IMG/VR virus record: IMGVR_UViG_3300018083_000104 | Location: 1-26,790 of that record | Origin: a virus | Reading direction: 5' to 3' (one strand) | Length of the DNA stretch: 26,790 bases | In this document: positions 1,902 to 26,646 of the stretch, piece by piece | Numbering within the stretch: the first letter of the stretch is position 1 | How the letters are laid out: every line of letters starts with the position of its first letter | Position numbers and translations under genes: made by a program | Notes under the pieces: model-generated | Told to the model about the DNA's origin: nothing | Seen by the model: only the letters and a program-made list of their open reading frames with translations | Databases searched by the model: none

Positions 1902-2498
1902 TCAAGAACAACCGAGCGTCTCGCGAGCGCGAGTCCAGTATTGATGTCGTCTATCGTAGTGCGTCAGTCCGCCGTTCACGCGACGCGTGCATGCGATCAG
2001 ATCGTCTGCGTCGGCGAATTGGTTCAGGTTCTTCCATTGCCAGAAATAACCTGCGCTGCGACACGCGCCGTCAACCGCTTCGAGTTCCTCCGGATGATCG
2101 AGCAAATGCGTCGCGCTACCACAGAGCGCTGTGCTCGTGCGCTGATAGTTCGTGCGTCCTGTCGTCTGGATTAGACCACGTCCGAGGTACTTGTATCCGT
2201 CGCCGTGCTCCGAGTTGCCGAGCATGAACGCGACGCGATTGCGCGGGTCGTCCTTCGTCCAAGGCTGACCGAAGTCGCGCTCGTATCTTTCCTGTGACGG
2301 GGTCGGCGACCATAGTTCGCGCGTGTAGCGTAGCTCGCCGCTCTCCTCTGCGATCTGCGCAAGGAACATCGCGACGCGCGTCGGCGTGTCGATTCCAAAT
2401 TCAGCAAGCGTACGATTGAGCGGCTCTATGAAACGCAGCGCGCGCGCCTGTGAGTTTGTCATGACGAATTGCAATTGGTTAATTGCGAGGAGTCCCAT
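1902..2498 (-). CDS. Endolysin, glycoside hydrolase family 19 (chitinase/lysozyme-like)
   Basis: A 198-residue muralytic enzyme expected to cut the glycan strands of peptidoglycan during lysis. The GH19 signature is clear: an N-terminal helix, then FLAQIAEESGELRYTRELW (residues 45-63) with the probable catalytic glutamates E52 and E61, then the substrate-groove motif GDGYKYLGRGLIQTTGRTNY at about residues 99-118, and a C-terminal segment with AGYFWQWKNLN and VNGG. In relatives the residue before the first catalytic Glu is usually His; here it is Glu (EESG). There is no signal peptide, peptidoglycan-binding or LysM domain, so it should depend on the holin for export. The start at 2498 has a weak SD sequence (GGTAGCAGCA) and overlaps the upstream membrane-protein gene by 20 nt; the ATG at 2462 is an alternative without an obvious SD sequence. 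Confidence 0.92.
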   Translation of the reverse strand: MGLLAINQLQFVMTNSQARALRFIEPLNRTLAEFGIDTPTRVAMFLAQIAEESGELRYTRELWSPTPSQERYERDFGQPWTKDDPRNRVAFMLGNSEHGDGYKYLGRGLIQTTGRTNYQRTSTALCGSATHLLDHPEELEAVDGACRSAGYFWQWKNLNQFADADDLIACTRRVNGGLTHYDRRHQYWTRARETLGCS

Positions 2499-2682
2499 TG
2501 CTGCTACCGATAATCACTGCACGCAAAGTCGAACCGATCCAATTGGTTCTGCGTATGCACATGCGCGCGAGGAGCAGCGTCGCCGCGATGCCGATCACGA
2601 TGCCGATCACGAGAGCGATGCCGATACAAATTGCAAATGTATCCAGCATCGCTAAATAGTTCAGAAGATAGACTGTGCTCAT
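2479..2682 (-). CDS. Small one-helix membrane protein in the lysis cassette
   Basis: A 67-residue protein with ATG at 2682 preceded by GAGGGAGAA as SD sequence. Its start overlaps the stop of the upstream coiled-coil gene (ATGA, 2679-2682). A single long hydrophobic helix runs from about residue 14 to 40 (AICIGIALVIGIVIGIAATLLL), followed by a basic segment (ARMCIRRTNW) and a polar tail, which predicts an outside N-terminus and cytoplasmic C-terminus. It could be a pinholin, antiholin or inner-membrane spanin component. It lacks the long periplasmic coiled coil of an i-spanin and no lipobox gene is embedded in it, so a spanin role is not supported. Position between holin and endolysin argues for a lysis role; the function is inferred only from context. 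Confidence 0.75.
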   Translation of the reverse strand: MSTVYLLNYLAMLDTFAICIGIALVIGIVIGIAATLLLARMCIRRTNWIGSTLRAVIIGSSNGTPRN

Positions 2683-2863
2683 TTCTCCCTCGTGCGTCGC
2701 TCGTCGTATTCAGCAAGGAACTTCATTGCCCATTCGACGTCTTCGTCTGACCACTGCGCGCGCGTGTCCTGACCTATGATCTCTGCCAAGACATGCTCTA
2801 ATCGTTCTACTCGCCGAGTTAGTTCGGCGATGTCTGCAATTCGTTTCCCCGTTCTTTTGTCAT
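2679..2863 (-). pseudogene. Small coiled-coil lysis-cassette gene with broken reading frame
   Basis: The ATG at 2863 overlaps the holin stop (ATGA, 2860-2863) and the stop at 2679 overlaps the next start (ATGA), so this interval is built as a normal gene of the operon. Read straight from the ATG it stops after 14 codons (TAA). One step back in frame within the first codons, the rest reads cleanly as a charged coiled-coil protein: IADIAELTRRVERLEHVL, then a middle segment with QWSDEDVEWAMKF, ending RRTREK. With a single -1 shift or one inserted base in the A-run at 2855-2858 or the G-run at 2847-2850 it would encode about 61 residues. No ATG, GTG or TTG start exists in the correct frame ahead of the coiled coil; only a rare ATT does. 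The cause may be a sequence error, a real frameshift mutation, programmed slippage or non-standard initiation. Confidence 0.65.
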
Positions 2864-3243
2864 TGTCTTCCCCCCTTGTCTCTATCTGTCGGGTACATGG
2901 GATTATGACGATCAGTTATAGGTCCGCTGCGCATCGCGATCTTGTTTTCGATCACTTGCTTGACGACGCGACCCATGAACTCGAATGCCTGCACGCTAAA
3001 AAGACCGACGACGCCCGCAGTGAAAAAGCCGAACGACTCAGGCCAGCCAGCGCCCTTCCATGCGTAGTAGACGAGCAGACCTCCGAATCCTCCCATCACA
3101 GAGCGCCGAACGATCCCCCAAAAATGTTGTGCTGCCGTCAGTTCCTTCCCGCTGACTTCGTGATCTCGAATGTGTGCAACGATACCGCCGACGAGCGCTG
3201 TGATAATGAACCACCACGCGCTAACTATCTCGCTCAGGCGCAC
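2860..3243 (-). CDS. Holin, LydA-like (three membrane helices)
   Basis: A 127-residue membrane protein beginning at a GTG (3243) with a strong SD sequence, GGGGGAGCGCT, immediately upstream. Three hydrophobic helices are visible: about residues 9-26 (SAWWFIITALVGGIVAHI), 46-64 (RRSVMGGFGGLLVYYAW) and 70-90 (GFFTAGVVGLFSVQAFEFM), followed by a charged cytoplasmic tail (from about residue 95, ending DRDKGGRQ). This pattern (short charged loop after helix 1, Gly-rich helices, tail of about 35 residues) resembles the LydA/holin superfamily III group found next to endolysins. It would form the inner-membrane lesion that releases the endolysin. It overlaps the receiver-membrane gene by 23 nt and is coupled to the next gene by an ATGA overlap. 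Confidence 0.8.
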   Translation of the reverse strand: MRLSEIVSAWWFIITALVGGIVAHIRDHEVSGKELTAAQHFWGIVRRSVMGGFGGLLVYYAWKGAGWPESFGFFTAGVVGLFSVQAFEFMGRVVKQVIENKIAMRSGPITDRHNPMYPTDRDKGGRQ

Positions 3244-3997
3244 AGCGCTCCCCCTTCTCTCGTCGATCCTGAATCAGTAACGCGAGACTCGACATCGCGA
3301 ACACAGGCATGAGCACGCTCGACGGAGTCCAAGCGCCGTCAAGGATGAACATTGAACAGAGCGAGAGCCATAGGAAGATCGACAACACCAATCCGATGTG
3401 ACGCGCCGCGCGGTGCGGTCTAATTGCGCCGAACGAAAGAATGATGCCTATCGCAATCATGATTATTGCCCACGCAGCGCCCATGTCGTTCTCGTTGAAC
3501 GTCATGTAATACTGAGACGGTCCCGGTATCGCAGCGACAAGACCCCAAAGGATTTCGGTTGCGCCGACAATGAACGACGCACACTTGACCTCGAAGCGAT
3601 CGTATCTGGTGCTCCGCATTATTTGCTTGAGCGTGATCGTCGTGCGCATGAGACTCTTAACGATTCCTTCGTGGAGCACGGTCGCGTCAAGAGGCTTGAT
3701 AATGAGCGCGTCGAATCCCGCGTCGATTGCCGACGACTCGTAGGGCAGAGCGCCAGTGAGCGCGATAATAGGGATGTCATGCAGTGACGGATCGCGTTTC
3801 ACTTCTCTCGCCAAGTCGTATCCACTTGCATTCGCGAACTTCAGATCGCACACGATCATGTCGCATGAGTTCGCTCGCGCAAGACGGACGCCGTCCGATA
3901 CGTTCATAGCCGATATGACTTGGAAGCCGTGACGCTGCAACTCCCTCGTCTGAAGGATGATGTCGTTCTCGTCGTCATCGACCAGTAGCACTAGCAT
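3221..3997 (-). CDS. Response-regulator receiver domain fused to a four-helix membrane domain
   Basis: A 258-residue protein with two parts. Residues 1-118 form a complete receiver (REC) domain: acidic pocket D7/D8/D9 at the end of strand 1, phospho-acceptor D51 (IVCDLKF), switch threonine T81 (IALTGA) and invariant lysine K101 followed by Pro (IIKPLD). The D51-T81 spacing of 30 equals that in CheY. A linker, then four hydrophobic helices at about 139-157, 172-192, 199-219 and 226-242 follow, ending in a basic tail. There is no DNA-binding or enzymatic output domain. The membrane part recalls stand-alone four-helix proteins found near phage lysis and tail-tip genes. The ATG at 3997 lies 1 nt after the tail-fibre gene stop, with only a weak SD sequence. 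It could let a host kinase or phosphate signal act on a membrane protein at lysis; that is inference. Receiver assignment is firm, function unknown. Confidence 0.85.
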   Translation of the reverse strand: MLVLLVDDDENDIILQTRELQRHGFQVISAMNVSDGVRLARANSCDMIVCDLKFANASGYDLAREVKRDPSLHDIPIIALTGALPYESSAIDAGFDALIIKPLDATVLHEGIVKSLMRTTITLKQIMRSTRYDRFEVKCASFIVGATEILWGLVAAIPGPSQYYMTFNENDMGAAWAIIMIAIGIILSFGAIRPHRAARHIGLVLSIFLWLSLCSMFILDGAWTPSSVLMPVFAMSSLALLIQDRREKGERCAPERDS

Positions 3998-3998
3998 G

Positions 3999-4655
3999 TT
4001 AGGTGTCCGCAGTTATGCGCACGACATTCGTTCCGTCACACTCGACGATCGCGCGCTTCGTGTCCGCGACCGTGATGCCGGTTCCGGACGCGCCGATTAC
4101 TCGGACGCCGAATCCTCCTGTCGTGTTCGCGTAAATCGTATATGCGCGCGGCACGAGAGGAACGATCACGTCGCGCAGCGCGGTCAGAGCGCCTGTCAGT
4201 TCGAGCGAGTCCGCCATCGTCTGCGCATACGTCAGCGTCTTGTTCGCGTCCGCCATCGCGATGACTTGTCGATCGTACAGGAAGCGGATCATATGCTTCA
4301 CGTTCCGATGATCGAGTTCGCCTGTGACTGCGCTGCCGCTCGTCGTTAGTTCGTACAGCGCCAGCTTGTCGGCAGGAAACGCCGTCGCGTTGTCGCTCAC
4401 CGCGAGCGCTCTGCTCAACGCGAGATAGCGTGTGCTCGACACAGTGAGCGCGAGCGATCCGTTCGCGAGTGACGTCATCGTTCCATTGATGGGCCAGCGA
4501 TCGATGCCGGTGTAGTGCCACGTCACGCCGGTCGACGCGGGCAGCTTTCCGAGCCACGACGCGATCGAGACGCTGCCGAAGTTTGCGTTCGCAGTTTCTT
4601 CCTTGCGCGACTGCGATGCGCTGATCTGCGTGATCTTGGTGGTGAGGTCGCTCAT
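3999..4655 (-). CDS. Tail fibre or tail-tip associated protein
   Basis: A 218-residue protein translated directly after the giant tip protein, sharing an ATGA overlap with its stop. The N-terminus is a short Thr/Ser/Gln-rich helix (SDLTTKITQISASQSRKEE), followed by a beta-rich middle part. The last 40 residues form a small glycine-rich domain, including GFGVRVIGASGTGITVAD and RAIVECDGTNVVRIT. This C-terminal pattern (TGI.VA...RAI..CDGTNVVR) recurs at the ends of phage fibre and virion surface proteins, so a role in host recognition or capping the tip is likely. No catalytic motif or chaperone domain is visible. Position at the end of the tail module, just before the lysis cassette, fits a fibre gene. 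Structural role fairly likely; exact partner inferred. Confidence 0.7.
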   Translation of the reverse strand: MSDLTTKITQISASQSRKEETANANFGSVSIASWLGKLPASTGVTWHYTGIDRWPINGTMTSLANGSLALTVSSTRYLALSRALAVSDNATAFPADKLALYELTTSGSAVTGELDHRNVKHMIRFLYDRQVIAMADANKTLTYAQTMADSLELTGALTALRDVIVPLVPRAYTIYANTTGGFGVRVIGASGTGITVADTKRAIVECDGTNVVRITADT

Positions 4656-7600
4656 ACGTTGATCGTCCTTCGTGCGGCGAAGCCGCGTCCGACAGTCGCC
4701 GATAATTGATAGACGTCGATGTATATCGTCGTCTGACTGCCGCCGAAGTCCGTCGACTGCTGCGCGGCAGTGTACGTTGCAGTCTCAGTCGACGATGTCA
4801 GCGTGCGCTTGAGCGTGGTGAATGAGGAGTCCCATATGTCGACCTCATACGATGCTGTCGTCTCGCCGACAGGCACGTCGACATTGTCGCGCCACTCTCC
4901 GCTCGTGCGCGGACGGCGATGCCACTTGATCAGAACATCCCAACTAGCGTTAGCGTTCCGTCCTGCGTGAACGTGGACAGGCGCGAGCGGTTCGAGTCCG
5001 ACGCCCGCGAGTGTGAACGGCAACTGCGTCGCTTCCGTGACGACCTGTCCGAATGCGGGTGCCTTGTAGATGCGAGCGGCGTTAAGCTCAGATGACGGCG
5101 TCGTCACGCGGATCGCCGAATCAACGGACAGTAGGGCGAACAGTTCGCCGATGACGTGCGTAGTCATGTGCTGCTCGGTGCCTTGGATGCCACGGAGCAG
5201 TCGACTCACCTTGTATCGACGCGCCGATAGAAACTCGGCGTTAACGAATCCGATCAACTCACCGTTTCCGCAGTACGCTCTGTTCGCGCCAGCGCGAACG
5301 AGTTCGTCCGTCGACGACGAGAGTTCCTCGTCATTCAATAGCAGTACCTCGAACGAGTTAACCGTGTCGAAGTAGTTGCCGCCTGTCCACGTTGCGAGCA
5401 CCGTCTGCGCGGAGCCGATCGGCGCAGGCTGCGTGATCACCGAGTCGAGCTTCGTGAACGTGACGCCGCCATCGATCGAGCGCCAGAGTTCCGCTCCTGA
5501 CCATCCGCTGTAGTAGCCGGAAGCGACCACGTAAAACCCGACGTTGTCGTCTTCGTCGCGCAGTATCGGTATGTCGAGCAGTCGCGCGAGCGTAGGACCG
5601 GCGATGCCGACGCCTGTCGCTGCGTCCGGAATGCCGACGCCTGTTCCTGTAGGAGAATAGATCGACGGTCGATCTGCGACGCATGTGAGTTTGATGACGC
5701 CTGCGGCTGCGTTCGTTCCTCTGATCTGTAGCGTGTGCCCGCCAGCATAGATCACGTCGCCGGGTTCGAGCTTCGAGTATTTGCGCGGCAGCGCAAGCTC
5801 GTGCTCCATGCGTGAAATCCATCTGTCATACAGCGTGAGTTCCGCCAACTGATTAGCGCCCGTCGCAGTCATCACCATTGGAACCTGCACGACGAGAGGC
5901 TCCATCGCGGAGCCGATCAGACGGCGATGATATTCTGTCCCTGGCTCGTAGTCGTTGTCCGCGTCTTGATACTGGACGGCAACCTCATACGGCAGCGACG
6001 ACTCGACAAGTCGCGTCGAGATCATCTGCGCTGGCGGCTTCTCTCCATAGATATGCGCGCCCAGATCGTCGTCGTCTACAGTGAGCGCGACCGTGCCTGT
6101 GCGCTTGACCGCTTTGAGCAGGAAGTCCGACTCGATCAAGTCCCACTTGAACGCTGGCAGCAACGGCGTCAGGAATGAACGAACGGAGTTGATGCGACCG
6201 AGTCCGTAGCCGAGCAGTACGTCAGACGACAGAGCGCTCACGTTATAGTCGGCGCCGGTGAAGCCTGCGCGATCGAGGAGTTCGCTCACTGCGTCGTCTA
6301 GCGGATACGATCCACCCGTCACGCGACCGAGCCGCTCGATCTCTTTCAACAGGACGTTTCCTGTCGACGAGTCCCATATGACAGAGCGATTATCCTCGGT
6401 GAATCCAAGCATGAATCCGACGTGCAGTTCTGACTGAGCGACGACCTGTCCTGTAGTCGGATGCACTTGATACGCACGCTTGTCGCTGCCGCTCTCGATG
6501 CCGAACGCCCAAATGAATCCGGCAGGGTCTTCGTGAATGTATTGCCCTGTCGTCGACGACGACGCAGTCACAGTCACAGTGAGCAGCAAGACACCGTCAG
6601 CCGTGTACTTGCGAATCGTCTGTCGCTCGCCGATCGAGTTCGACGGACCGACCCAGATGTGTCCGGACGCGCTGACCAGAAGTCCGTTGATCGCAGTCAT
6701 CGCGATCAAGCCGACCAGCGAATTATTGCCAGTGCCGACATATGCAATATATTTTTGTGACGACCCGTCGACCGCTGCGTGCATGTACACGCGACCGGCA
6801 ATGCCGCATGCGTTCTTCGCCAACTGCGCGCAATAGACTCCGGTGAGTTGCGTGTTCGAGATCGTGAACAGATCGTGATCGATAATCACGCGCCAGAATG
6901 AATTGTTTCCGATGCTGCCATCGCCGCGCGCCCATACCGTCTCACTACTTTCGGGAACAATGCCGGGAGCATAGAAGTTAGAGAACGCGCCAGCACCAAG
7001 GAAGTTCGTTCCTCCTGTGTATGCTTGCTTCGATCCGTCAGGACGTGCAATCGTCAATCCGCTTCCGAATCCTGTGAGGATCGCGTATCCGTCGAGCGTC
7101 ATACCGACAGGATTGTATGAGAACGTCGGCGGAACATACGTGCCGACCTGAGAGCCAGCGTAGAAGTTCCAGCGGTTCGCTCTGCTCGATCCGTCTGCGC
7201 CTGCATAGATGTCGCCGTTCTTCGAGAGCGTGACATATGCAGACGACACGTCAGTCGGCCCAAGATTCGCAACTGTGCGCACGTCAAGATCAGCGGACGT
7301 CGCGGAGCGTGACACGAGGAACTCGACGTGTGTCGGCAGCTTGCCGCCGTACGCAGTGATGTCCCATCCTTCGACGACGACATACGAATAGCCGCGATAC
7401 GCTGGCGCAAGCGTGCCTTCCGCAGCGAGTATCAGAGGGTCTTGCAACTGCGTCTCGCTGCCTGGATAGAAGCGCAGCGCCGCCGCGAGAAGCGACGACG
7501 CCGATAGAGACTCTGTCGTCGCAGCCGCGCTCACGTCATACTTGGTTTCGCCTTGCACTTTGACGGTGAGAATACCGCCAGCCTCTCCCTCGCAGAGCAG

Positions 7601-7969
7601 ATACGCGACGTCGACGAAGTATGAGTACGTCGTATTCGACACAGTCTGTTTGCGCGTTCCTTTGCCGCCGACGCGCTGCGTCGTCGTATTAGGAACCTCT
7701 CGGACGGTCGATGCCCATATCGCTTTGCCTTGCACCGGATACGTGCCGAAGATGATCGGCACCATCTCGCCGTACGCCTGACTGATGATGCGCGTGTCCG
7801 TCGCGCGAGGTCCGTAGTTGTTCACGTCCTTCGGGCGCGGACCGAAAAAGTAATTGCCTGCGAATACGCCTGCCTGCCAGCCCCACGCGAGCGACGACAC
7901 ACCGAGGAACGTGCCGCCTATCGCAGCGCCGATGCCTGCGCCTGCTACGCCGAGAGCGAGCACCGCCAT
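4652..7969 (-). CDS. Tail tip / central fibre protein (GTA-megatron and gpJ type) with inserted beta-propeller-like region
   Basis: An 1105-residue protein. The N-terminus has a Gly/Ala-rich hydrophobic stretch (residues 5-35), then YGPRATDTRIISQAYGEMVP, the typical start of the phage tail tip family containing the GTA TIM-barrel-like tail proteins and lambda J relatives. Hub domains resume at about 546 (DDAVSELLDRAGFTGADYNV) and include SLPYEVAVQYQDADNDYEPG near residue 660, a TARG-like turn and fibronectin-like C-terminal domains from about 960. Residues 235-545 do not fit the family and look like a beta-propeller of five or six blades (repeats with GDIYAG, GRVYMH, GHIWVG, GFIWAF, RSVIWD). 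ATG at 7969 follows the NlpC/P60 stop TAG directly. It should form the tip hub that contacts the cell envelope. Family assignment is firm from order and motifs; the propeller is inferred. Confidence 0.9.
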   Translation of the reverse strand: MAVLALGVAGAGIGAAIGGTFLGVSSLAWGWQAGVFAGNYFFGPRPKDVNNYGPRATDTRIISQAYGEMVPIIFGTYPVQGKAIWASTVREVPNTTTQRVGGKGTRKQTVSNTTYSYFVDVAYLLCEGEAGGILTVKVQGETKYDVSAAATTESLSASSLLAAALRFYPGSETQLQDPLILAAEGTLAPAYRGYSYVVVEGWDITAYGGKLPTHVEFLVSRSATSADLDVRTVANLGPTDVSSAYVTLSKNGDIYAGADGSSRANRWNFYAGSQVGTYVPPTFSYNPVGMTLDGYAILTGFGSGLTIARPDGSKQAYTGGTNFLGAGAFSNFYAPGIVPESSETVWARGDGSIGNNSFWRVIIDHDLFTISNTQLTGVYCAQLAKNACGIAGRVYMHAAVDGSSQKYIAYVGTGNNSLVGLIAMTAINGLLVSASGHIWVGPSNSIGERQTIRKYTADGVLLLTVTVTASSSTTGQYIHEDPAGFIWAFGIESGSDKRAYQVHPTTGQVVAQSELHVGFMLGFTEDNRSVIWDSSTGNVLLKEIERLGRVTGGSYPLDDAVSELLDRAGFTGADYNVSALSSDVLLGYGLGRINSVRSFLTPLLPAFKWDLIESDFLLKAVKRTGTVALTVDDDDLGAHIYGEKPPAQMISTRLVESSLPYEVAVQYQDADNDYEPGTEYHRRLIGSAMEPLVVQVPMVMTATGANQLAELTLYDRWISRMEHELALPRKYSKLEPGDVIYAGGHTLQIRGTNAAAGVIKLTCVADRPSIYSPTGTGVGIPDAATGVGIAGPTLARLLDIPILRDEDDNVGFYVVASGYYSGWSGAELWRSIDGGVTFTKLDSVITQPAPIGSAQTVLATWTGGNYFDTVNSFEVLLLNDEELSSSTDELVRAGANRAYCGNGELIGFVNAEFLSARRYKVSRLLRGIQGTEQHMTTHVIGELFALLSVDSAIRVTTPSSELNAARIYKAPAFGQVVTEATQLPFTLAGVGLEPLAPVHVHAGRNANASWDVLIKWHRRPRTSGEWRDNVDVPVGETTASYEVDIWDSSFTTLKRTLTSSTETATYTAAQQSTDFGGSQTTIYIDVYQLSATVGRGFAARRTINV

Positions 7970-9246: not shown

Positions 9247-9878
9247 ACGCGACGCTCGATGATCGGCAGCGAAGGAAGCGAGAACAGATTGCGCCCCTCC
9301 TCGAATCGAATCATGAATTCATCCGTGTCGAAGCGAACAGGGAAGTCGAAGTCTCCGGAGCATGTCAGCACGTCGCCGCCTGTCGGCGCGGTGCCGAACG
9401 TTACGATGCCTGTCGTCGAGTCATACTGAAAGTTTCCAGCGCCGGGAGCCTGCGTGACTTCGACTGCGTTCTTGTATACGCGCAGCGTCGGAGTCACTGT
9501 CGGCTTCTTTATGTCACGGTAATACGTGTATGAACCGATCGTGTATTTCTTGCGTATCTGATACGTCGTGCCGCTTACTGCGACTCCAGTGCCGAGCACG
9601 CCGTCTGCCGTCGTGAACGAGTAGTCGCGCTCCCACTTGAAGCGGAACATATTGCCTCGCCCTACGGCGACCGCCTCGAAGAACGCCTGAAGCTGCGCGA
9701 TGTGCGTCGAGTTCCTCACTGCATGCACGAGATCGAACTTATGCATCGACTGCGACCACTTCGAGTTTCGATACTCGCGACCGGACACGGTCGGCACTAT
9801 CTCCGTGAGGAAAACGGGACCGCCGCTCGACTTGTAGCCGATGCCTTCCGGAAAGCGTGGCGACTCTATGAAGCTCAT
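9243..9878 (-). CDS. Distal tail protein, DUF2460 (TIGR02217 family)
   Basis: A 211-residue protein. The N-terminal sequence FIESPRFPEGIGYKSSGGP, then TEIVPTVSGREYRNSKW and FEAVAVGRGNMFRFKWERDY are diagnostic of the DUF2460 family; the C-terminal half is a beta-rich domain (about 110-190) ending in FDFPVRFDTDEFMIRFEEG. In gene transfer agents the homologue forms the distal tail ring joining the tube to the tip hub. It overlaps the tape measure stop and the DUF2163 start by 4 nt each, so these genes are translationally coupled. Length is typical of the family and no unusual feature is seen. Confidence 0.93.
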   Translation of the reverse strand: MSFIESPRFPEGIGYKSSGGPVFLTEIVPTVSGREYRNSKWSQSMHKFDLVHAVRNSTHIAQLQAFFEAVAVGRGNMFRFKWERDYSFTTADGVLGTGVAVSGTTYQIRKKYTIGSYTYYRDIKKPTVTPTLRVYKNAVEVTQAPGAGNFQYDSTTGIVTFGTAPTGGDVLTCSGDFDFPVRFDTDEFMIRFEEGRNLFSLPSLPIIERRV

Positions 9879-12800
9879 CCGTTTTTACTCATCTCATAAT
9901 CGAGTTGACGACCGATGCGCGCCGCGATCTGCGATGCGGATTCGTGACTCGTTCCTTGCGGCACGTTGATCTCGATGTGCTGCGAGTTGTATGTGTCACC
10001 GCTCGATGAGCGCGCACTGCCGCCGCTGCCCTTCGGGGTGAATATCTCCGGACCGACCTCGCCGACCCAGTACGGAACGCCAGCGCTGACGCCGCCGCCC
10101 ATCGCGCGATGCGCGACAGCGAGCGGGTCCATAATCATTTCGTACATGCGCGTCGCCGTCTCGCTCACGGACGACGAGCGCAGTCGCTCGATTGCAGACT
10201 GCCTGCTGATGTCGATCACGTTCTGCGAGCGCATGCGCTCGACGACGTTGTTCGGGATGATCGTGCCGCTCTGCGTCGGGACGAATATCTCCGGACCGGA
10301 TTCGCCGACGAGATACGTCGAGTTCGCCGTGACGGGTCCGCCTTCCTCGCGCGCATGCGGCAGCATCGGCGCAAGCATTCGTTCGATGCGCTCGCGCAGC
10401 GTGACGAGGTTCGATACGGACGACGAGCGCTCATGCTCGCGCTCTTGTGTACGATCGAATACATTGACGTGCGCCTGCATACTCTCGCGTACCGCATCAC
10501 GCGCCGACGCACTACGATCGCTCGATAGACTCTCGATAGACTCTCGATAGACTCTATCCGTACTCTCGCGCGACAGCGACGGCAGTATCCGTTCGATGCG
10601 CTCGCGAATTGTGTGCAGTATCGAGCGATCGGTACTGTCACGCTTTTCGGTACTCTCGTGAAAACGATTGACATCGCGCAGCGCAGAATGCTCGCTTCCG
10701 TCTGTATATCTTTCGATATAGTCATCACGAATTGTCGATGCTGTCGACGTATGCAGTAACTCATTCACTAAGCGATCGGCGCTCGACTCGCGCAGCACAC
10801 GATCGCTGATCTGCTCCGTGTGCGAGCGCTCCCCCACGACGGACGAATCCCGAAGGAGCGTCAGCGTCGTGGGGATCGCAGCGGCTTGCGCCGCGCTCTC
10901 GCGTGTGTTCGTGTGTGTATCGATGCTTGTCCGTGTGTCCGCATGCGTGTGCGTGAACTCACGCGCAATGCGCTCGATCGTCGACGCAACCGACTCGTGC
11001 TCATCGCGTGTCGACTCGCGCATGCGATCGATGACCGCTACACTCTCGCGCTCTGCGGTGATACGTGCGGGCGCACGCGACGCGTTTAACGGAATAGGCG
11101 ACGTCGGGTTCTCCGGTTCGACTCCGGGCACCGCAGTCTTCTCACGGAACGAATCAGTCAGTCGCTCGACACGCTCACGGATGGCGATTGCCAGCGGCGA
11201 CGTGGCGATTGCCTTCACGCGATCGAGGAGCGCGCTCGACTTCTCCGTGGTCGTCCTGCTATCGGTGCGTCCGAGTATGTCTTGCGTCGAGTCGGACACT
11301 GCCGAATGTGTGGCGCGTACGCTCTCCATTTCTCGAACAGCTTCGCGCAATACGGACACCGCCGAGTCTCGATGCGTGCTCTCCTTTACGTCGCTGTCGC
11401 GCAGCGTGTCGCGCTCCGCGCTCCGCTCGATCTGCGCGATGCGCTCGAACGCAGTCTGCGCCGCGCTGTGTTCGCGATCGACGAAGCGCTCGCTGCGCAA
11501 CTGACTGTCAGTCAGTTCGCCCTCACGCGAGTTGTTGGTAAGCCGAGGCTGCGTACCAACTCCGCTTGTCACGAGCGAGCGAAAAGGGGGGTTATCGCTC
11601 GCTCGCTCGATCACTGCGTCACGCACGCTGCGATCAGTAATTGTCGACAGAGTCGACAGTTCCTTGCGATCGCTGTCGATCTCACTCAGTCGCAGGACGT
11701 CCGCTGTGCGCTCGCTGTTTTCGTAGCGCTCACGGACGGACGCTGCGGCTTCGTTAAACGCGCTGTGATCGATCGCGGATAGCTCGACATAGTTCGAGAG
11801 CGTCGTGTCCTGCGAACGCGCCACGGACGCGCTCACGCGCTCACGATCGATCGCTTCCATAGTCCGGAGAATCTCGGACGCTTTGCTCTGCTCGGACGCG
11901 CTCCGATCAGTGACGGATTCGATCGAGCGCAGGACGTCGTTCGTCTCGATCCGCCCCGCCGTGCTCGGCACGAATATCTCGGGTCCGCGCTCGCCGACCA
12001 CGTACGGCTGCGCGGCAGCGACGGGTCCGCCCTCTGCTCGGAAGAACCCACCGAGGAAGCCGAGGATGCTGTCGAGGAATCCGCCGCCGCTCGACCCCGG
12101 CTGCAACGGCCCGACGAACGATGCGCTACCGGGAGTTCCGACACCGCCGCCGCTCCCACTGATCAGCTTCGATGCGATCGTGCCGAAGCTGCCTTCGTCG
12201 CCGAAGATGCCTTTGAATAATTTCTTGCTGATGTCCTGCGACACGAGCGACGTGACGTCACGCACGATCGAATTGGTGAAGTCGTTGAATGCTTCCTTCG
12301 CCGTCTTCGCCCCTGTCGCGACGTCAGTGAAAAAATCTGCGAGCGCGCTGTCGGCAATCTCGTCGAACTTATTCTTGACGAGGTCCGCATTCGCGATCAT
12401 CTCGTCGACGATCAGCTTGAAGTTGTCGGCGTCCTGACGCAGACGAGCGTCAGACCCCGGCGCGTTCGCGATCTCGACATACTTGTCGGCGAGTCGTTGC
12501 AGTTCGGGGATCGCCGCCTGTCGCGCGGCGCTCGCACGTTGCAGGAACGTCAACTGCCCGATTGATCCTGCATCCTGCTCTGTGCGCAGTCGCGCCTCTT
12601 GATTGCCGAGTCGCTCTTGTATCAGCGTCGACTCGCGCGTGATCTCGTTGATCTCCGCTGACAGTATCTTGCGATCACGCAGCCTGCGATCCAAGTCGAC
12701 CGCGCCTTGATCGCCACGATTGATCGCTTGCTTCAGGAATGCTTCGCTCTCGAATGCGTCGCGCGCTTCCGCCGCCTCACGAAAGCGACCTTGCAGTTCG

Positions 12801-14461
12801 AGCAGTTGCGCGTTGAGTTCCGCGACCTGTTGCGCGTACTGATTATCCGATTGCTGCGTCAGTAATCGCTTCTGCTCGTCGAGCAGCGCGAGCGCTTCCG
12901 GATTCAGCTTGAACTGTCTGCGCAGGTCTTCCTGTTGCGACTCGATGCGCAGCTTGACCGACAGCACGGTGTTGCCTTGCAGATCGGCGACGTCCGCCTT
13001 CAGATCGTTCAGCGTGCGCGCGTATTTTCGGACCGCCTCCTCTTGCTCGAAGAACGATTTGGTCCCTTCAAGCGCGAGCGTCTGATAGATGTCTCCGATC
13101 TTGTCGGCAAGCTCGGCGATCTTCGTTCTGTTCGCAGCCTTGTCAGCCTGCGTTACGAGCTTGCCGTCGAGCGCTCTCAGTTGCGCGATCTGCGCTTCGT
13201 ATGACGCAACGATATTCGCTGCGGCAGACTGCGCGCGCTCCTCGCGCTGCGCATAGAACTGATCGAGCGTGATTAGATTCTGATCAAGCAGAATCTTGTC
13301 GACTTCGTTCAGATGCTTTTGCAGACCTTCCTGTTCCTTGATCTGCCGCTCGAACTGTTTGATCGCTTCGTCCGCGAGCGCCTTCGCGTCTGTCGCGCTC
13401 TTGCCAGCGTTGATGCGCGGTGGCGCAGGGACTCGCGGCGTTGCAGGTTTCGTTTCTCCTGTGATCGCCGTCGGGTCAGTCAGAATGCGCAGATGCGCCT
13501 TGTATGTCGCCTGCTCCTCAAGCAGAACCTTCTTTTCTTCCTCAAGCTCCGCACGCAGCGTCTTCGATATAGACGTGGACTTGAGTCTCTTGTCGACGCT
13601 TGCCATCGTCGTCGCGAGCACGTCGATCTCTTTTCGCGTGCGCGCAATCTCGTCGCCGACGACAAGCCCCTTCGCTGCGCCGAGCAGTCCGCCGAAGAAT
13701 CCCTCGCCTGCTCGCAGCGCGTCGAGGAATCCTTTCGCCATCGCGTTCAGCGTAGGCAGTAACTCGTTCAGAATTTCTAGCTTCAGTTTCTCGAACGAGA
13801 TTGTGAGAAGCGCGACCTGTTCCTTGAACGTGTCGACCTTCTGCACGCTCTCGTCGTCGAACGCGCCGCCGATCTTCTCGATCTCCGGAGTGAGGCGCGC
13901 GACCTTCGACGCGAACTCATCCATCGCGCGACCGGACTTGCTGAAGTTGTCGCGGAGTAGAGCGACCTTGTTAGCGCCGCCCTCGAACTTATCTAGATTC
14001 GCGAGCGCCTTGCGCAGAACGGCATCGAAGTCTTTCGACTTGATGTCGTCCATTGTCAGACCGATCGCCTTCAGATCGAGCAGCGCTTGCGGATCACCGC
14101 CTTGCGCCTCCGACAATCGCGTCGAGAACTTGTCGAATATCTTTCCGAGTTGCTCAAGCTCGATGCCGCTCGCCTTCGCGACGCCTGCGAGTATGTTGAC
14201 TTGCTGCGCGCTGATGCCGAACGCCGCGCCAAGATCGCCGACGTCGTCGATCTGATTGATCATCCGTTGCAACGGACCGACGATCGTCTGATCGATTGCG
14301 AACGCGGCGATGCCGCGCTTGAACAGAGCGCCTGCGGTATCCGCTGCGCCGCCGAGTGAGGCTAGTTCCTTCTTGATCTTTTCGACGTCGCGCGAAATCT
14401 GCGCCGTGCGCATCTGCACATCGACGAGCACACTGCCGACGCCGCCACCACTAGCCGCCAT
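9875..14461 (-). CDS. Tail tape measure protein with an unusual long C-terminal extension
   Basis: A 1528-residue protein. The ATG at 14461 has GAGGAAG upstream and lies inside the end of the chaperone gene (11-nt overlap). Residues 1-280 form the usual N-terminal helical part with a Gly/Ala-rich hydrophobic segment. From 280 to 740 long coiled coils rich in Glu/Gln/Arg/Leu follow. Around 740-830 the common tape-measure C-terminus appears: FNDFTNSIVRDVTSLV, a Gly/Ser hinge, then EGGPV and VGERGPEIFVP at 822-832. In relatives the protein ends near there. Here it continues about 550 residues of Arg/Ser/Glu/Thr-rich helix with recurring RERIERxL units, then two more copies of the motif, VGESGPEIFVP (1385-1395) and VGEVGPEIFTP (1466-1476), and a short end domain. 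It sets tail length and fills the tube. The identity is firm; the extension is the oddity. Confidence 0.95.
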   Translation of the reverse strand: MAASGGGVGSVLVDVQMRTAQISRDVEKIKKELASLGGAADTAGALFKRGIAAFAIDQTIVGPLQRMINQIDDVGDLGAAFGISAQQVNILAGVAKASGIELEQLGKIFDKFSTRLSEAQGGDPQALLDLKAIGLTMDDIKSKDFDAVLRKALANLDKFEGGANKVALLRDNFSKSGRAMDEFASKVARLTPEIEKIGGAFDDESVQKVDTFKEQVALLTISFEKLKLEILNELLPTLNAMAKGFLDALRAGEGFFGGLLGAAKGLVVGDEIARTRKEIDVLATTMASVDKRLKSTSISKTLRAELEEEKKVLLEEQATYKAHLRILTDPTAITGETKPATPRVPAPPRINAGKSATDAKALADEAIKQFERQIKEQEGLQKHLNEVDKILLDQNLITLDQFYAQREERAQSAAANIVASYEAQIAQLRALDGKLVTQADKAANRTKIAELADKIGDIYQTLALEGTKSFFEQEEAVRKYARTLNDLKADVADLQGNTVLSVKLRIESQQEDLRRQFKLNPEALALLDEQKRLLTQQSDNQYAQQVAELNAQLLELQGRFREAAEARDAFESEAFLKQAINRGDQGAVDLDRRLRDRKILSAEINEITRESTLIQERLGNQEARLRTEQDAGSIGQLTFLQRASAARQAAIPELQRLADKYVEIANAPGSDARLRQDADNFKLIVDEMIANADLVKNKFDEIADSALADFFTDVATGAKTAKEAFNDFTNSIVRDVTSLVSQDISKKLFKGIFGDEGSFGTIASKLISGSGGGVGTPGSASFVGPLQPGSSGGGFLDSILGFLGGFFRAEGGPVAAAQPYVVGERGPEIFVPSTAGRIETNDVLRSIESVTDRSASEQSKASEILRTMEAIDRERVSASVARSQDTTLSNYVELSAIDHSAFNEAAASVRERYENSERTADVLRLSEIDSDRKELSTLSTITDRSVRDAVIERASDNPPFRSLVTSGVGTQPRLTNNSREGELTDSQLRSERFVDREHSAAQTAFERIAQIERSAERDTLRDSDVKESTHRDSAVSVLREAVREMESVRATHSAVSDSTQDILGRTDSRTTTEKSSALLDRVKAIATSPLAIAIRERVERLTDSFREKTAVPGVEPENPTSPIPLNASRAPARITAERESVAVIDRMRESTRDEHESVASTIERIAREFTHTHADTRTSIDTHTNTRESAAQAAAIPTTLTLLRDSSVVGERSHTEQISDRVLRESSADRLVNELLHTSTASTIRDDYIERYTDGSEHSALRDVNRFHESTEKRDSTDRSILHTIRERIERILPSLSRESTDRVYRESIESLSSDRSASARDAVRESMQAHVNVFDRTQEREHERSSSVSNLVTLRERIERMLAPMLPHAREEGGPVTANSTYLVGESGPEIFVPTQSGTIIPNNVVERMRSQNVIDISRQSAIERLRSSSVSETATRMYEMIMDPLAVAHRAMGGGVSAGVPYWVGEVGPEIFTPKGSGGSARSSSGDTYNSQHIEINVPQGTSHESASQIAARIGRQLDYEMSKNG
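10521..10553 (-). repeat. Three perfect tandem copies of an 11-nt unit inside the tape measure gene
   Basis: The unit ctcgatagact (plus strand) is repeated three times without a mismatch. Three units make 33 nt, exactly 11 codons, so the frame is kept and the same 11-mer is read in all three frames to give VYRESIESLSS (about residues 1304-1314). A gain or loss of one unit would shift the frame and truncate the last 200 residues. Confidence 0.9.
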
Positions 14462-18629: not shown

Positions 18630-18920
18630 CTATAAGTTCGTGCGCTCGACCACGAACTCGTTGCGATCCGCCGCCTGTCCGTTGCCTGTCGAGTGAAAAC
18701 CGTAGCGCCACGTCCCGCTTGACGTGACGTCAACGTCGGCGCGATAGATGCCGGTCGACACACGCACGACCATCGGTCCGACCGTGTATTGATATTCGAT
18801 CGTCTCCTCCCCCGGCTCACGCACGCGGAAGAACACCGCAGTCGGGTCGACCAGCGTGCCGGTCGAATCTCTGAAGGTGCCAGTGCAGCGGACCAAGTCG
18901 CCCACGTCATAGCGGTTCAT
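18630..18920 (-). CDS. Small beta-sandwich virion protein
   Basis: A 96-residue protein with ATG 18920 preceded by GAGGAGATCGC. The sequence reads as one Ig-like or jelly-roll sheet: YDVGDLVRCTGTFRDSTGTL, DPTAVFFRVREPG, VVRVSTGIYRADVDV, GTWRYGFHSTGNGQAA, EFVVERTNL. Similar proteins (V...TG.Y..D..... .G.WRYR) recur in the structural regions of many siphoviruses without a proven role; attachment to head or neck is likely. It overlaps the repeat protein gene by 4 nt (ATGA) and precedes the two-domain protein by 9 nt. Confidence 0.75.
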   Translation of the reverse strand: MNRYDVGDLVRCTGTFRDSTGTLVDPTAVFFRVREPGEETIEYQYTVGPMVVRVSTGIYRADVDVTSSGTWRYGFHSTGNGQAADRNEFVVERTNL

Positions 18921-20767
18921 GCGATCTCCTCAGTGAGCGTGACGCTGTACGCGAGCGCGTCCGATAGGACGCACGTATTCGCCAGCGCATCGTCGATCGC
19001 GCATGAGTTCGCGAGCGCGTCCAATACGTCGACGGTGGCGATAATTCCTGTCGAGAGCCAAGCATGCGGCGTGAACGTGACGACGCAAAGTCCCTGCATT
19101 GCGCCTTCGGTATCGACCGCGCCTGACAACGAGAACGTCAGATCGATCGCGCCGTACAGATCGCCTGTCGCGCCCATCGTCGCGTCGGACGCGAACGCGA
19201 ATGATGACGTGCCGCTCAGTTCGGACACATGGATCATCGACGCGCTCGGGGTGAACTCGATCAGGCATGTCGCGGCGATGCCGACGTCTCCTGTCATTGC
19301 AGCGCTCGGCGTGAACGTGAGCGCGCATGTGCCAGCCATCGGAGCCGTCGACCCCATGCTCGCGCTGACGACGAACTGCATGACCGCGCTCGCTTGCAAA
19401 TCGCCGTTTGCCGTGAGAGCCGCTGTCGGTGTGAACGTGAGCGTCTCGCTGCCAGCAAGAGCGCCAGCCGCCATCAGCGTCGCGCTCGGCGTGAATGCAA
19501 CGGTGCCGCTGCCAGCCAAGTCGCCCGTCGCAGTGAGCGTCGCAGTCGGCGTGAACGTGACGACGCTCTGCCCGTACATGCCGCCATCCGTGAGCATCAT
19601 TCCGGACACAGTGAACTCGACGAGCGCGGATGCTGCGAGCGCACCCGCAGCGGTCATTGTTCCGCTCGGTGTAAACGTCAACGCAGAAGCGCCTGAGAGC
19701 GCGCCTGCCGCGTCGAGCGTCGCAGTGGGCGAGAAGGATAGCGTCGATGTCCCTGCGATCGATCCTGCGCCGTCTAGCGAAGCCGTAGGGGTGAACGTCA
19801 GCGTCGATGTTCCTGAGAGCGCGCCCGCTCCTGTCAGCGCAGCGCTCGGCGTGAACGTGATCGTCGACGTACCGTCGATCGTCGCGTCGGTGGTCATCGA
19901 TCCGCTCGTGGTGAACGCGAGCAGCGCGGACGCGACGAGCGCGCCTGCTCCGGTCATCGTCGCGGTCGGGGTGAATGTAATTGTCGACAACGCCGACAGA
20001 TCGCCTGACGCCGTCAGCGCAGCGCTCGGCGTGAACGTGACGAGCGATGTGCCGTCGATGAAACTGTCCGCCGTCATCGTGCCGCTCGGCGTGAACTCGA
20101 CGAGTGACGTCCCTGCAATCGCGACCGCCCCCGATAGCGTCGCAGTAGGTGTGAACGTCACCGTCGAGGTTCCGCTGATCGCTGCATCCCCGCTCACGCT
20201 TGCGCTCGGCGTGAACATGACGAGCGATGTGCCTGCGAGCGTCGCGTCTGCGAGAAGTGTCGCAGTCGGTGTGAACGCGAGTGTCGATGTGCCGCTGATG
20301 TCCGCGTTGAACAGCAACTCGCCGGTCGACGCGAACGTGACAGTCGACGTCCCTGCCAGCACACCGTCCGCAGTCAATGTTGCCTGCGGCGTGAACGCGA
20401 GCGTCGACGTTCCAGCAAGGATGCCGTCCGCAAGCATCGTTCCGCTCGGTGTGAATGCGAGCGTCGAAGTGCCTGCGAGTGCTCCGCTGCCGGTGATCGT
20501 TCCGGTCGGCGTGAACGTCAGTGTCGCGAGCGCGTCGAGCGCCACGCTGCCTGTCAGTGTCGCTTGCGGCGTGAACGTGACGAGCGATGTTCCTGCAAGG
20601 ATGCCGTCCGCCGTTATCGTCCCGGTCAGATCGAACGCGAGCGTCGCGCTGCCGACGAGCGCGTCAGGCGACGTCTCTGTCGGATACAGTCCGCCGAAGC
20701 GACGCGAAACGCGTCGACGCTTCTCGCGCTTCTCCGGTTGCGGGATTGCGTAGCGGATGAAACTCAT
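18917..20767 (-). CDS. Repeat protein: 27 copies of a 20-residue unit
   Basis: A 616-residue protein. Residues 1-36 form a basic leader (IRYAIPQPEKREKRRRVSRR). Residues 37-575 consist of 27 consecutive units of 20 residues (the last has 19), with consensus LAGTSTLTFTPSATLTADGA: hydrophobic at 1, G at 3, hydrophobic/polar alternation at 5-9, F at 9, T-P at 10-11, and hydrophobic at 14 and 16. The last 41 residues lose this pattern and carry shorter repeats around DALANSC/DALANTC/DALAYSV. Strict 20-residue register with alternating strands suggests a beta-solenoid or a chain of beta-hairpins. It overlaps both neighbours by 4 nt. A surface fibre or decoration is likely; I do not know a named family. 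On the opposite strand a 654-codon open frame is produced by the same repeats and is not a gene. Confidence 0.88.
   Translation of the reverse strand: MSFIRYAIPQPEKREKRRRVSRRFGGLYPTETSPDALVGSATLAFDLTGTITADGILAGTSLVTFTPQATLTGSVALDALATLTFTPTGTITGSGALAGTSTLAFTPSGTMLADGILAGTSTLAFTPQATLTADGVLAGTSTVTFASTGELLFNADISGTSTLAFTPTATLLADATLAGTSLVMFTPSASVSGDAAISGTSTVTFTPTATLSGAVAIAGTSLVEFTPSGTMTADSFIDGTSLVTFTPSAALTASGDLSALSTITFTPTATMTGAGALVASALLAFTTSGSMTTDATIDGTSTITFTPSAALTGAGALSGTSTLTFTPTASLDGAGSIAGTSTLSFSPTATLDAAGALSGASALTFTPSGTMTAAGALAASALVEFTVSGMMLTDGGMYGQSVVTFTPTATLTATGDLAGSGTVAFTPSATLMAAGALAGSETLTFTPTAALTANGDLQASAVMQFVVSASMGSTAPMAGTCALTFTPSAAMTGDVGIAATCLIEFTPSASMIHVSELSGTSSFAFASDATMGATGDLYGAIDLTFSLSGAVDTEGAMQGLCVVTFTPHAWLSTGIIATVDVLDALANSCAIDDALANTCVLSDALAYSVTLTEEIA
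19043..20659 (-). repeat. Array of 60-nt coding repeats (27 copies)
   Basis: The segment has a 60-nt period on the minus strand, most conserved in the codons for TFTP (complement of ggcgtgaacgtga and variants). Copies differ at many positions, so this is an old, diverged array and not a recent expansion; units 4 and 5 are the most alike at the protein level. Confidence 0.9.
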
Positions 20768-24156: not shown

Positions 24157-26646
24157 TTAAGGCGCGGGTGAAACAGTGTACGGAACGCCCTGCAATCGCA
24201 GAGCGGAGTCGCTCGTCGCGTCCGGACCCAAGTCCTGCACCGAATACTTGCGACCGCCGATTGCGAACGTCGTATCCTCTGGCGGCTTCGGCGGATCGGG
24301 CGGAACCGGCGGCGTCGTTCCTCCGAGCGAGCACCAGAATCCCTTCGTGAACCCAGTGGTCGAGCACGGCGCAATCTCAGCGAGCGTCGCGACCTTGACC
24401 GCATTCCAGCATTGTTGATTCGTGAGCCGATTCGTCACGGACGCGACAGGACAGTTCGCCTTGCTGATGTCGCCTGCGCCCATATTCGTGCTGTGATACA
24501 TGAGATAGTTCGGTGCCTGCTCCTCGAAGTAGTAGCCGAAGTCCTGTCCGCTATTGTTGTGATTCAGCGATTGCACCTTGCTCGACAATATGCGATGCGC
24601 ATTGACATCGTAGTAAGCGAGATAGCCCATGAAGTCCTGCGGTGTCGACGGCGTCTCAAGGATGTCGCCTTGCAGATAGCGCACGGCAGGACGGATGACG
24701 GTGCGATCGAACATGATGTTCCTGAACGTGGTCGACTTCGGTTGATTCGGTGACGTGTCGATGACGTTGACGTAGTTTTTCAGAGTGCCGTCGATTATTT
24801 CAAGAACGCCCGATGTATAGCCCTCGGTGCCCTGCGGAAACGCACCGCGCGTTCCAGGCAGCGCGATGCCTTGAACGAATCCTTCGATGCGAATGTTCCG
24901 GAGCGTCAGCTTGCCGCTCTCGTATGTCGTCGAGCGGAAATCAAGACCGTGATTCTCGTCGCTTGCCTGCGCGCTGATCGCAGGATCGTTGACGCACACG
25001 TAACCGTCATACGTCGCGCTGATGTTGCGCGCGCTGTACAGACACGCTTGCGCGATGTGCCAGTTCTTCGCGTTGCGAATGACGCCGACATTTCCTGACG
25101 CTCCGACCCAGTATCCGTGATTGGACGAATACGTTTCGTTGTCAGAGTGATCTCTGCTCGGCGGCGCGATCCGCGCAGGCTGCGTCGGCCAGCCGTAGTA
25201 TTCCCACTCGCTGTCGATCGCGATGTCAGCGCCACGGAAACGCGGCACGACGGGATAGTGATAGCCGAATCCGGACGGCGGACGATGATTGATATTCACG
25301 CCCGCGTACTGTGCGTTTGCGCATATGTTCGATCTCACGAAGTTGTCGTTGCCAGTGAACCACAAGCAAGAACCTTCCCATCCGAAATCTTCCCACACGC
25401 CGGTCACGACTCCACCGTACGAGGGCCATTGCGAATGCACGCTCGGCTTGCCAATGAGAATCATGGCGTTCCGATCAATTTCATTCTCGCGCTCGTTTCC
25501 TTGCTCCGTCTGGATTCCGGAGCCGTCCGCCTTGTATATGACGTTGTCATTGACTTGCAGCCAGTGACTATTGTGGATCGCAATCGCCCACTTCAGACTG
25601 TCATAAAAACTGTTGCCGACGAACGCGCCTTGGAAGCCGGTGTTCGATGCGTTGCGCGGCCCCATGTAGTGATGCGCGTGGATCGGGTAGCGTCCCTTGA
25701 TGTTGCTCGTCGTCAGTCGCGCAGCCTTCGTCCTGCCCATGTTGTCGAACTGCACGAAGCGAACGTCGCACAGCGCGCGATCGGTGCACATCGTATGTCC
25801 ACGAGTGCCGGTTGGCGACTCGCTGCGCACGATGATGTTCCTCGTCTGATTCTGAACGTGAGGCATCAGACCGACGCCTGCGCCGAAGTGATTGAACTTC
25901 ATCGGCGCGTTCAGCGTGACGAGCGTGCCGTTCACTTCGCGTACAGTGACCTCCTCGATCTGAAGGTCGATCGGTTTATCCGGAACGTCGCCCCACTTGC
26001 GCTCGACCGCAGTCTGTCGACTGTCGGGCAGGATCAGCTTGTCGCCGGTCTTCCAGCCGACGGGAGGCGCATCGAGCGAGAGCATGACGTCGCCTGCCTT
26101 TGCGTTCGCGACGAGACGATGCCATGTGGACTTCGGCATGCCGTGGAATCTCCACTCACCGAAGCTGATTAGTCCGGTCCAGAATTGACCAGTGTCATCC
26201 GATGCGATCGGCGTATTGCTTATGACGATCTCCGCTTTCGGAAAGAGCGGCTGCGTATTCGTTCCGCATATAAATTTTCCGGTGCGGTAGATCAAGATGT
26301 TCGCCGCCTTGAGAGAACTGTCCGCCTTTGAGTCGCATCGAACCATGCCGCTGATTGCGAGCGTGAACACGTTCGCCGACGTATAGTCGATGATGTGATC
26401 TTCCTTCACGAGCACGGTATCGGTCGCGGTCGGCGCGCGCTCCGGACTCCATACGGACGGGTCGACCCACAGACCAGACTTGACGCTCGTGATCGTCGGC
26501 GTTAGACCGCGATCCGGAATCGTATCCTTCGGCGTCTGCGTCGGCGCGAGCGAACTCAGCGCGACAGGCGGGTGAACGTGCGGAGTATCTTGCGCGAGCG
26601 CGCTGACGTAGAGCATCAGCGCCGCGACGACGACTGCTACTTTCAT
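24157..26646 (-). CDS. Secreted G8-domain / CEMIP-like parallel beta-helix protein
   Basis: An 829-residue protein with ATG 26646, GGGGATGTC upstream and an ATGA overlap with the preceding gene. Residues 1-18 form a signal peptide (MKVAVVVAALMLYVSALA, cleavage before Q19). Residues about 50-160 match the G8 domain: LWVDPSVWSPERAPTATDT, then DHIIDYTS, AISGMVRCDS, AANILIYRTGKFICGT and KAEIVISNT. A long right-handed beta-helix follows; it contains GRYPIHAHHYMGPRN, then AIAIHNSHWLQVNDNVIYKA and GIQTEQGNERENEID, the layout seen in the CEMIP/TMEM2 hyaluronan-acting family (YPIHxH, IHxS, EDGxExRN). A Pro-rich linker (TPPVPPDPPKPPEDTT) and a 40-residue end domain close the protein. It may bind or cut polysaccharide outside the cell or, if kept in the virion, act as a tailspike. 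Family match is strong by motif; activity and substrate are unknown. Confidence 0.82.
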   Translation of the reverse strand: MKVAVVVAALMLYVSALAQDTPHVHPPVALSSLAPTQTPKDTIPDRGLTPTITSVKSGLWVDPSVWSPERAPTATDTVLVKEDHIIDYTSANVFTLAISGMVRCDSKADSSLKAANILIYRTGKFICGTNTQPLFPKAEIVISNTPIASDDTGQFWTGLISFGEWRFHGMPKSTWHRLVANAKAGDVMLSLDAPPVGWKTGDKLILPDSRQTAVERKWGDVPDKPIDLQIEEVTVREVNGTLVTLNAPMKFNHFGAGVGLMPHVQNQTRNIIVRSESPTGTRGHTMCTDRALCDVRFVQFDNMGRTKAARLTTSNIKGRYPIHAHHYMGPRNASNTGFQGAFVGNSFYDSLKWAIAIHNSHWLQVNDNVIYKADGSGIQTEQGNERENEIDRNAMILIGKPSVHSQWPSYGGVVTGVWEDFGWEGSCLWFTGNDNFVRSNICANAQYAGVNINHRPPSGFGYHYPVVPRFRGADIAIDSEWEYYGWPTQPARIAPPSRDHSDNETYSSNHGYWVGASGNVGVIRNAKNWHIAQACLYSARNISATYDGYVCVNDPAISAQASDENHGLDFRSTTYESGKLTLRNIRIEGFVQGIALPGTRGAFPQGTEGYTSGVLEIIDGTLKNYVNVIDTSPNQPKSTTFRNIMFDRTVIRPAVRYLQGDILETPSTPQDFMGYLAYYDVNAHRILSSKVQSLNHNNSGQDFGYYFEEQAPNYLMYHSTNMGAGDISKANCPVASVTNRLTNQQCWNAVKVATLAEIAPCSTTGFTKGFWCSLGGTTPPVPPDPPKPPEDTTFAIGGRKYSVQDLGPDATSDSALRLQGVPYTVSPAP

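Follow-up and report, generated by a model that had tools for sequence, protein, structure and literature searches.

The moment at which a phage bursts its host is a central decision in its life history. To our knowledge, few inputs to that decision are known: the holin clock, membrane potential, and superinfection acting through antiholins. What, then, would a two-component receiver domain be doing beside a holin gene? The question is raised by one metagenomic viral record, IMG/VR IMGVR_UViG_3300018083_000104, whose positions 1 to 26,790 are here called the window. A gene at 3221..3997 on the minus strand begins with ATG and encodes 258 residues in a single open reading frame. A sequence-only reading had described a receiver followed by four membrane helices, in a gene that shares 23 nucleotides with that of a LydA-like holin, and proposed that phosphorylation or its loss tunes lysis timing or superinfection behaviour. 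Pfam, hydrophobicity, and an AlphaFold2 model bear out the domain order, and the coordinates of the two genes (2860..3243 and 3221..3997) bear out the overlap.

A receiver joined to four membrane helices

The receiver occupies residues 1-118 (3644..3997, minus strand). Pfam Response_reg (PF00072) matches residues 3-110 with E 9.8e-16 and 58.3 bits, against a curated cut-off of 30.2. Residues D7, D8, D9, D51, T81, K101, and P102 are all present, and the earlier list of conserved receiver residues (D7/D8, D51, T81, K101 with the following Pro) stands. Pfam, AlphaFold2, and Foldseek together identify the (β/α)5 fold, two amino-terminal acidic residues, the acceptor Asp, the Ser/Thr, and the Lys. 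In the AlphaFold2 model, built with nine receiver sequences, pLDDT averages about 95 at residues 1-50, stays mostly above 89 to about residue 80, and lies at 70-90 for residues 81-120; a long helix, alpha-5, spans residues 105-127. Foldseek matched the receivers RpaA, PleD, DivK, and CheY (best PDB match, E 6e-10; DivK 1mb3, E 2e-9), and its best viral match was the receiver of Alteromonas phage V22. A domain with these residues probably accepts phosphate. The single-domain response regulators DivK and CheY share its fold and catalytic residues, but they are cellular and soluble and lack membrane helices. (Two PHROG families, phrog_731 and phrog_8810, were rejected as full-length relatives: the match is confined to their receiver portions, they resemble ordinary response regulators, and phrog_731 matches in all 14 of 14 control genomes.)

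No DNA-binding output domain, winged-helix or other helix-turn-helix, is matched by Pfam past residue 110, in keeping with the earlier description of a protein without one. The remainder consists of four hydrophobic helices at about residues 133-251 (3245..3601, minus strand). Hydrophobicity peaks lie at about 139-158, 172-193, 200-221, and 224-243; the corresponding AlphaFold2 helices, modelled with lower confidence than the receiver part, span 133-156, 169-191, 196-220, and 225-251.

By profile match, this membrane half is homologous to the phage family phrog_8980, in keeping with the expectation that it would resemble stand-alone phage four-helix proteins. Residues 137-224 match the family, the carboxyl-terminal half alone does so with E 5e-10, and none of 24 shuffles that preserved the composition of each helix and loop gave a match. 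A home-made profile of 12 stand-alone four-helix members, as aligned, was much less decisive (16.5 bits for the window domain; 16.5-22.6 bits for the best five of 5000 segment-wise shuffles). The case for homology therefore depends on the PHROG profile together with the visible alignment, in which IRPxxxxR between helices 2 and 3 is common to the window protein and a prophage member (L060). Foldseek found no match specific to the membrane part, and neither Pfam nor PHROGs matched the 258-residue protein to a holin family. The four-helix alignment holds no stretch conserved enough for scanning, and scanning with a degenerate DNA motif of the family gave chance matches only.

Stand-alone members of phrog_8980 are about 130-180 residues long and lack a receiver, and most of those examined adjoin endolysin, holin, or spanin genes. 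The neighbour is a spanin gene in Brevundimonas phage Fanboy; an endolysin gene in Bacillus phage SP-15 (gp66) and Agrobacterium phage JP1; a lysozyme gene in Sphingomonas phage Eidolon and in Nsp-JY10; and a GH19 enzyme gene in Erythrobacter phage R16L. One prophage (L013) carries its four-helix member with a GH24-like lysozyme and Rz/Rz1-like genes, and four others (L010, L056, L058, L060) carry theirs with endolysin-like genes. In Carli and Birtae all neighbours are unnamed. The family has few members in the sampled bacterial genomes, and none of those read has a fused receiver. (Three loci from the genome scans, L011, L012, and L061, gave no clear member of the family near lysis genes and were left out; the coding strand of L057 and L059 was not read.) Proteins such as SP-15 gp66 and those of Fanboy, Eidolon, and JP1 thus share with the window protein a homologous four-helix domain and, mostly, a lysis neighbourhood, but the amino-terminal receiver is found only on the window protein.

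Could the fusion be an assembly or sequencing artefact that joined neighbouring genes? The absence of a second example from viral, genome, phage, and plasmid collections would fit such an error, although these were searched mostly by single-sequence queries, which are liable to miss distant copies. A codon-usage score trained on the large genes of the window phage argues otherwise: it stays positive in the frame of the gene and negative in the other two throughout all 40-codon windows, those across the junction at residues 106-160 included. A gene-joining indel is expected to change the frame, and no change is seen, so the fusion was not made by a frameshift or indel, the event that the sequence-only reading had itself named as fatal to its case. 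Residue M127 resembles the start of a stand-alone four-helix member and could be the former start codon of a stand-alone membrane protein, but it lacks a convincing ribosome-binding site, again contrary to an artefact. We consider such an error very improbable; the fusion is confirmed as real and is known so far from one metagenomic sequence. The search for the same domain order gave no second fusion. No full-length relative came from single-protein scans of viral or genome contigs, and a holin-based scan found nothing.

The tail-to-lysis operon and its closest relative

Added to the earlier description is the setting of the gene, on the minus strand within a tail-to-lysis operon. Upstream in the same operon is a tail-tip protein gene (Rcc01698/GTA-like; 4652..7969, minus strand; PF13550, PF23666), and directly upstream of the fusion gene is that of a tail-fibre-like protein of 218 residues (3999..4655, minus strand; phrog_38625 tail fiber, E 4e-9). 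The overlapping holin gene (2860..3243, minus strand) encodes 127 residues and matches phrog_785 holin with E 3e-8; its score against Pfam LydA (PF16083) is 26.3 bits, slightly below the cut-off of 28.4. It starts with GTG, preceded by a strong ribosome-binding site, AGAAGGGGGAG. Next come a 67-residue protein with one hydrophobic helix and no clear family (2479..2682, minus strand) and a GH19-like endolysin of 198 residues (1902..2498, minus strand; phrog_181 endolysin, E 6e-54). With the holin gene overlapping it and the endolysin gene downstream, the fusion gene occupies a lysis-region position.

Three other minus-strand genes of the window may be recorded here. At 9875-14461 lies a tape-measure-like protein of 1528 residues, with a long S/R/E/T-rich stretch and a GGPVAAAQPYVVGERGPEIFVP-like motif repeated three times. 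A 616-residue protein at 18917-20767, without a Pfam family, is made of repeated GTSTLTFTPTATL-like units, partly as 60-bp tandem repeats. The 829-residue protein at 24157-26646 has G8 and CEMIP beta-helix domains, an unusual feature in the tail region of a phage.

A scan for relatives with the tail-protein alignment returned one phage, L002, and a distant contig, L020, only. L002 is the closest relative: its tail-tip and 218-residue proteins are 76% and 84% identical to those of the window. At the same junction, after the 218-residue gene, L002 has no receiver gene; an endolysin-like gene and other small genes stand there instead. The receiver-membrane gene is therefore accessory, and phages of this type can lyse their hosts without it. 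(The L002 gene at 11911-12567, exactly at the site of the receiver-membrane gene, is a second endolysin-like gene, matching phrog_181 with E 6e-22; an endolysin-like start is also present further on.)

Other genes at the same point also suit a different explanation, in which the fusion is a late accessory gene (a moron) unrelated to lysis control. Its receiver would disturb two-component signalling in the host (the envelope-stress or phosphate responses, for example) by serving as a phosphoryl sink or decoy, and the gene would lie where it does because insertions are tolerated at the tail-lysis junction. Single receivers that lack an output domain are able to act as phosphoryl sinks. A soluble sink, however, would have no need of a membrane bundle, and the fusion partner belongs to a membrane family found mostly beside lysis genes. 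We regard this explanation, the main rival, as rather unlikely, and the receivers of other phages bear on it further.

Receivers in the lysis cassettes of Alteromonas phages

Receivers of Alteromonas phages were retrieved by receiver similarity, not by gene position. In six of seven lineages (R9Y1, R8W/H4-4, V22, A5, PB15, and XX1924; the seventh is V19), a single-domain receiver gene lies within or beside the lysis genes. In all seven it directly follows a small gene for a membrane-plus-coiled-coil protein, and the start and stop codons of the two genes often overlap. Both regularities weigh against a sink unrelated to lysis.

The cassettes differ in composition. In R9Y1 the order is membrane-coiled-coil gene, receiver, lysozyme; in A5 it is membrane-coiled-coil gene, receiver, spanin-like gene, two-helix protein, endolysin. 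V22 has a papain-like amidase, membrane-coiled-coil gene, receiver, an Rz-like spanin with an embedded Rz1-like lipoprotein frame, and a two-helix protein. R8W and H4/4 have a class II holin, a one-helix coiled-coil protein, receiver, and a protein annotated in H4/4 with two membrane domains. A hemolysin-like coiled-coil protein precedes the receiver in both PB15 and XX1924; an M15-type endolysin and a phrog_3427 holin follow in PB15, and a small protein and a holin near-identical to that of PB15 follow in XX1924. By PHROG match the adjoining genes fall into lysis families: the endolysins phrog_315 and phrog_894; the holins phrog_1356 and phrog_3427; and the Rz-like spanin phrog_4297. Relatives in IMG/VR (L024-L027 and L040-L041), three of them grouped with V22, keep the gene order, with receiver identities of 46-77% (77% for the L040/L041 copies).

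Like the window protein, the receivers of V22 (gp30), A5 (gp11), R8W (gp48), R9Y1, PB15, and XX1924 are phage-encoded, lack a DNA-binding output, keep intact phosphorylation residues, and lie beside lysis genes. Unlike it, they are soluble single-domain proteins of 125-153 residues with a separate membrane-plus-coiled-coil gene alongside, and they are distant from the window receiver (18-26% over the alignment). The window receiver scores up to 69 bits against cellular receivers versus 47 bits against the R9Y1-group receiver, which suggests that it was recruited separately.

Membrane-plus-coiled-coil genes also commonly lie directly after phrog_8980 genes (L058 1898-2299, L060 1889-2200, L015 3354-3854, L065 2934-3416, and L066 2895-3221). 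Their architecture is that of the genes preceding the Alteromonas receivers, though the two groups resemble each other only weakly in sequence. In V22 (L023 5744-6043, near 26.5 kb of MN877442), the last part of the Rz-like gene is shared, in a different reading frame, with an unannotated lipoprotein-like gene (MLKKSAILFLLILTGCSTTPSTPSTE...) that resembles an embedded Rz1; L024, L026, and L027 carry a similar one.

The active-site residues (acidic pair, acceptor Asp, Ser/Thr, and Lys) are kept in 10 of 11 phage homologues, including six of the seven Alteromonas lineages, and dN/dS of the Alteromonas phage receivers is 0.08-0.20 where estimable. The exception is V19 (L032 3998-4450). Its receiver follows a membrane-plus-coiled-coil gene, has no recognised lysis gene next door, and no longer has the acceptor Asp, Ser/Thr, or Lys; from its residues it is possibly a pseudo-receiver. 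Its persistence with the neighbouring membrane gene would suit a module for interaction or dimerisation, one that assembles a lysis or superinfection-exclusion membrane complex and for which phosphorylation is dispensable. Such a role is improbable, with the catalytic residues otherwise complete and under purifying selection.

The Alteromonas cases are not all independent, since most come from one host genus in which modules are shared by gene transfer (PMC10579305). Receiver matches on large or unannotated contigs of the phage collections that resemble bacterial contamination were excluded from the counts, and human-fecal and Pseudomonas Y1/Y3/Y11 contigs with receiver matches were not checked gene by gene. 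Stenotrophomonas phage Bhz63 was set aside: its PhoP-like regulator has an output domain and lies away from the lysis genes. (A second Bhz63 gene, for a membrane protein, bears the annotation of a PRK11100 sensor-kinase domain.)

Some of these genes are already in print under other descriptions. In the accessible text of the papers concerned, the R8W receiver (gp48) is a PhoB auxiliary metabolic gene (PMC8228385) and the V22 receiver (gp30) a CheY-like class II auxiliary gene (PMC7289586), labels that would agree with a sink. The receiver genes of A5, V22, and P24 are placed in a host recognition module, and V22 gp31 and gp32 are described as proteins of unknown function (PMC10579305). The same text of these three papers draws no link between the receivers and lysis. 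The searchable literature yielded no report of receivers combined with holins, lysis cassettes, or lysis timing, in agreement with the earlier remark that they are not a described class; despite this, at least six lineages of Alteromonas phages carry them. The association of receivers with phage lysis genes is recurring but undescribed, and the window fusion is new within it. In phage N4, the cytoplasmic part of a membrane lysis protein (gp62/gp63) is proposed to set lysis timing (PMC12642591). The likeness lies in that architecture; the N4 "Receiver domain" is a label only and not a two-component receiver.

A possible link from host signalling to lysis

The sequence-only interpretation is supported in part. 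Upon the observed architecture, gene context, recurrence, and conserved chemistry we place the reading that the 258-residue protein is a membrane-anchored, phosphorylation-responsive accessory or regulator of the lysis cassette, at roughly even odds (about 0.5). Positive charge at the amino terminus, the TM2-TM3 loop, and the carboxyl terminus, with uncharged or acidic TM1-TM2 and TM3-TM4 loops, would place both termini and the receiver in the cytoplasm. There the receiver would be phosphorylated by host histidine kinases or by acetyl phosphate. (No histidine kinase was recognised among the lysis-region and large open reading frames scanned in the 26.8-kb record, itself a fragment.) The ensuing shape change would pass through the long alpha-5 helix to the membrane bundle and alter its interaction with the holin or other lysis membrane proteins, adjusting the timing or efficiency of lysis to the state of the host. 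Alteromonas phages would divide this task between the membrane-plus-coiled-coil protein and the separate receiver, products of adjacent genes.

The fusion to a membrane domain and the repeated pairing with membrane proteins in lysis cassettes favour this lysis role over a phosphoryl sink or moron. Against it count the fusion's restriction to one sequence, the absence of the gene from L002, the lack of a recognised kinase among the frames scanned, the degenerate V19 receiver, a junction that can collect unrelated genes, the incomplete independence of the Alteromonas cases, and the less decisive score with the home-made profile. A broader proposal is offered tentatively, as somewhat doubtful: several kinds of phage would carry an undescribed class of lysis-cassette receivers, either fused with a small membrane protein or paired with one, and by way of these receivers the state of the host phosphorelay (histidine kinases or acetyl phosphate) would set the moment or efficiency of lysis.

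If true, bacterial two-component signalling would be connected directly with lysis by a receiver in the lysis operon, and genes published as metabolic or host-recognition genes would be re-read. Alteromonas phages R9Y1, V22, R8W, and PB15 are cultured, so the question is directly testable. Some phages may let host signalling influence when or how the cell bursts.
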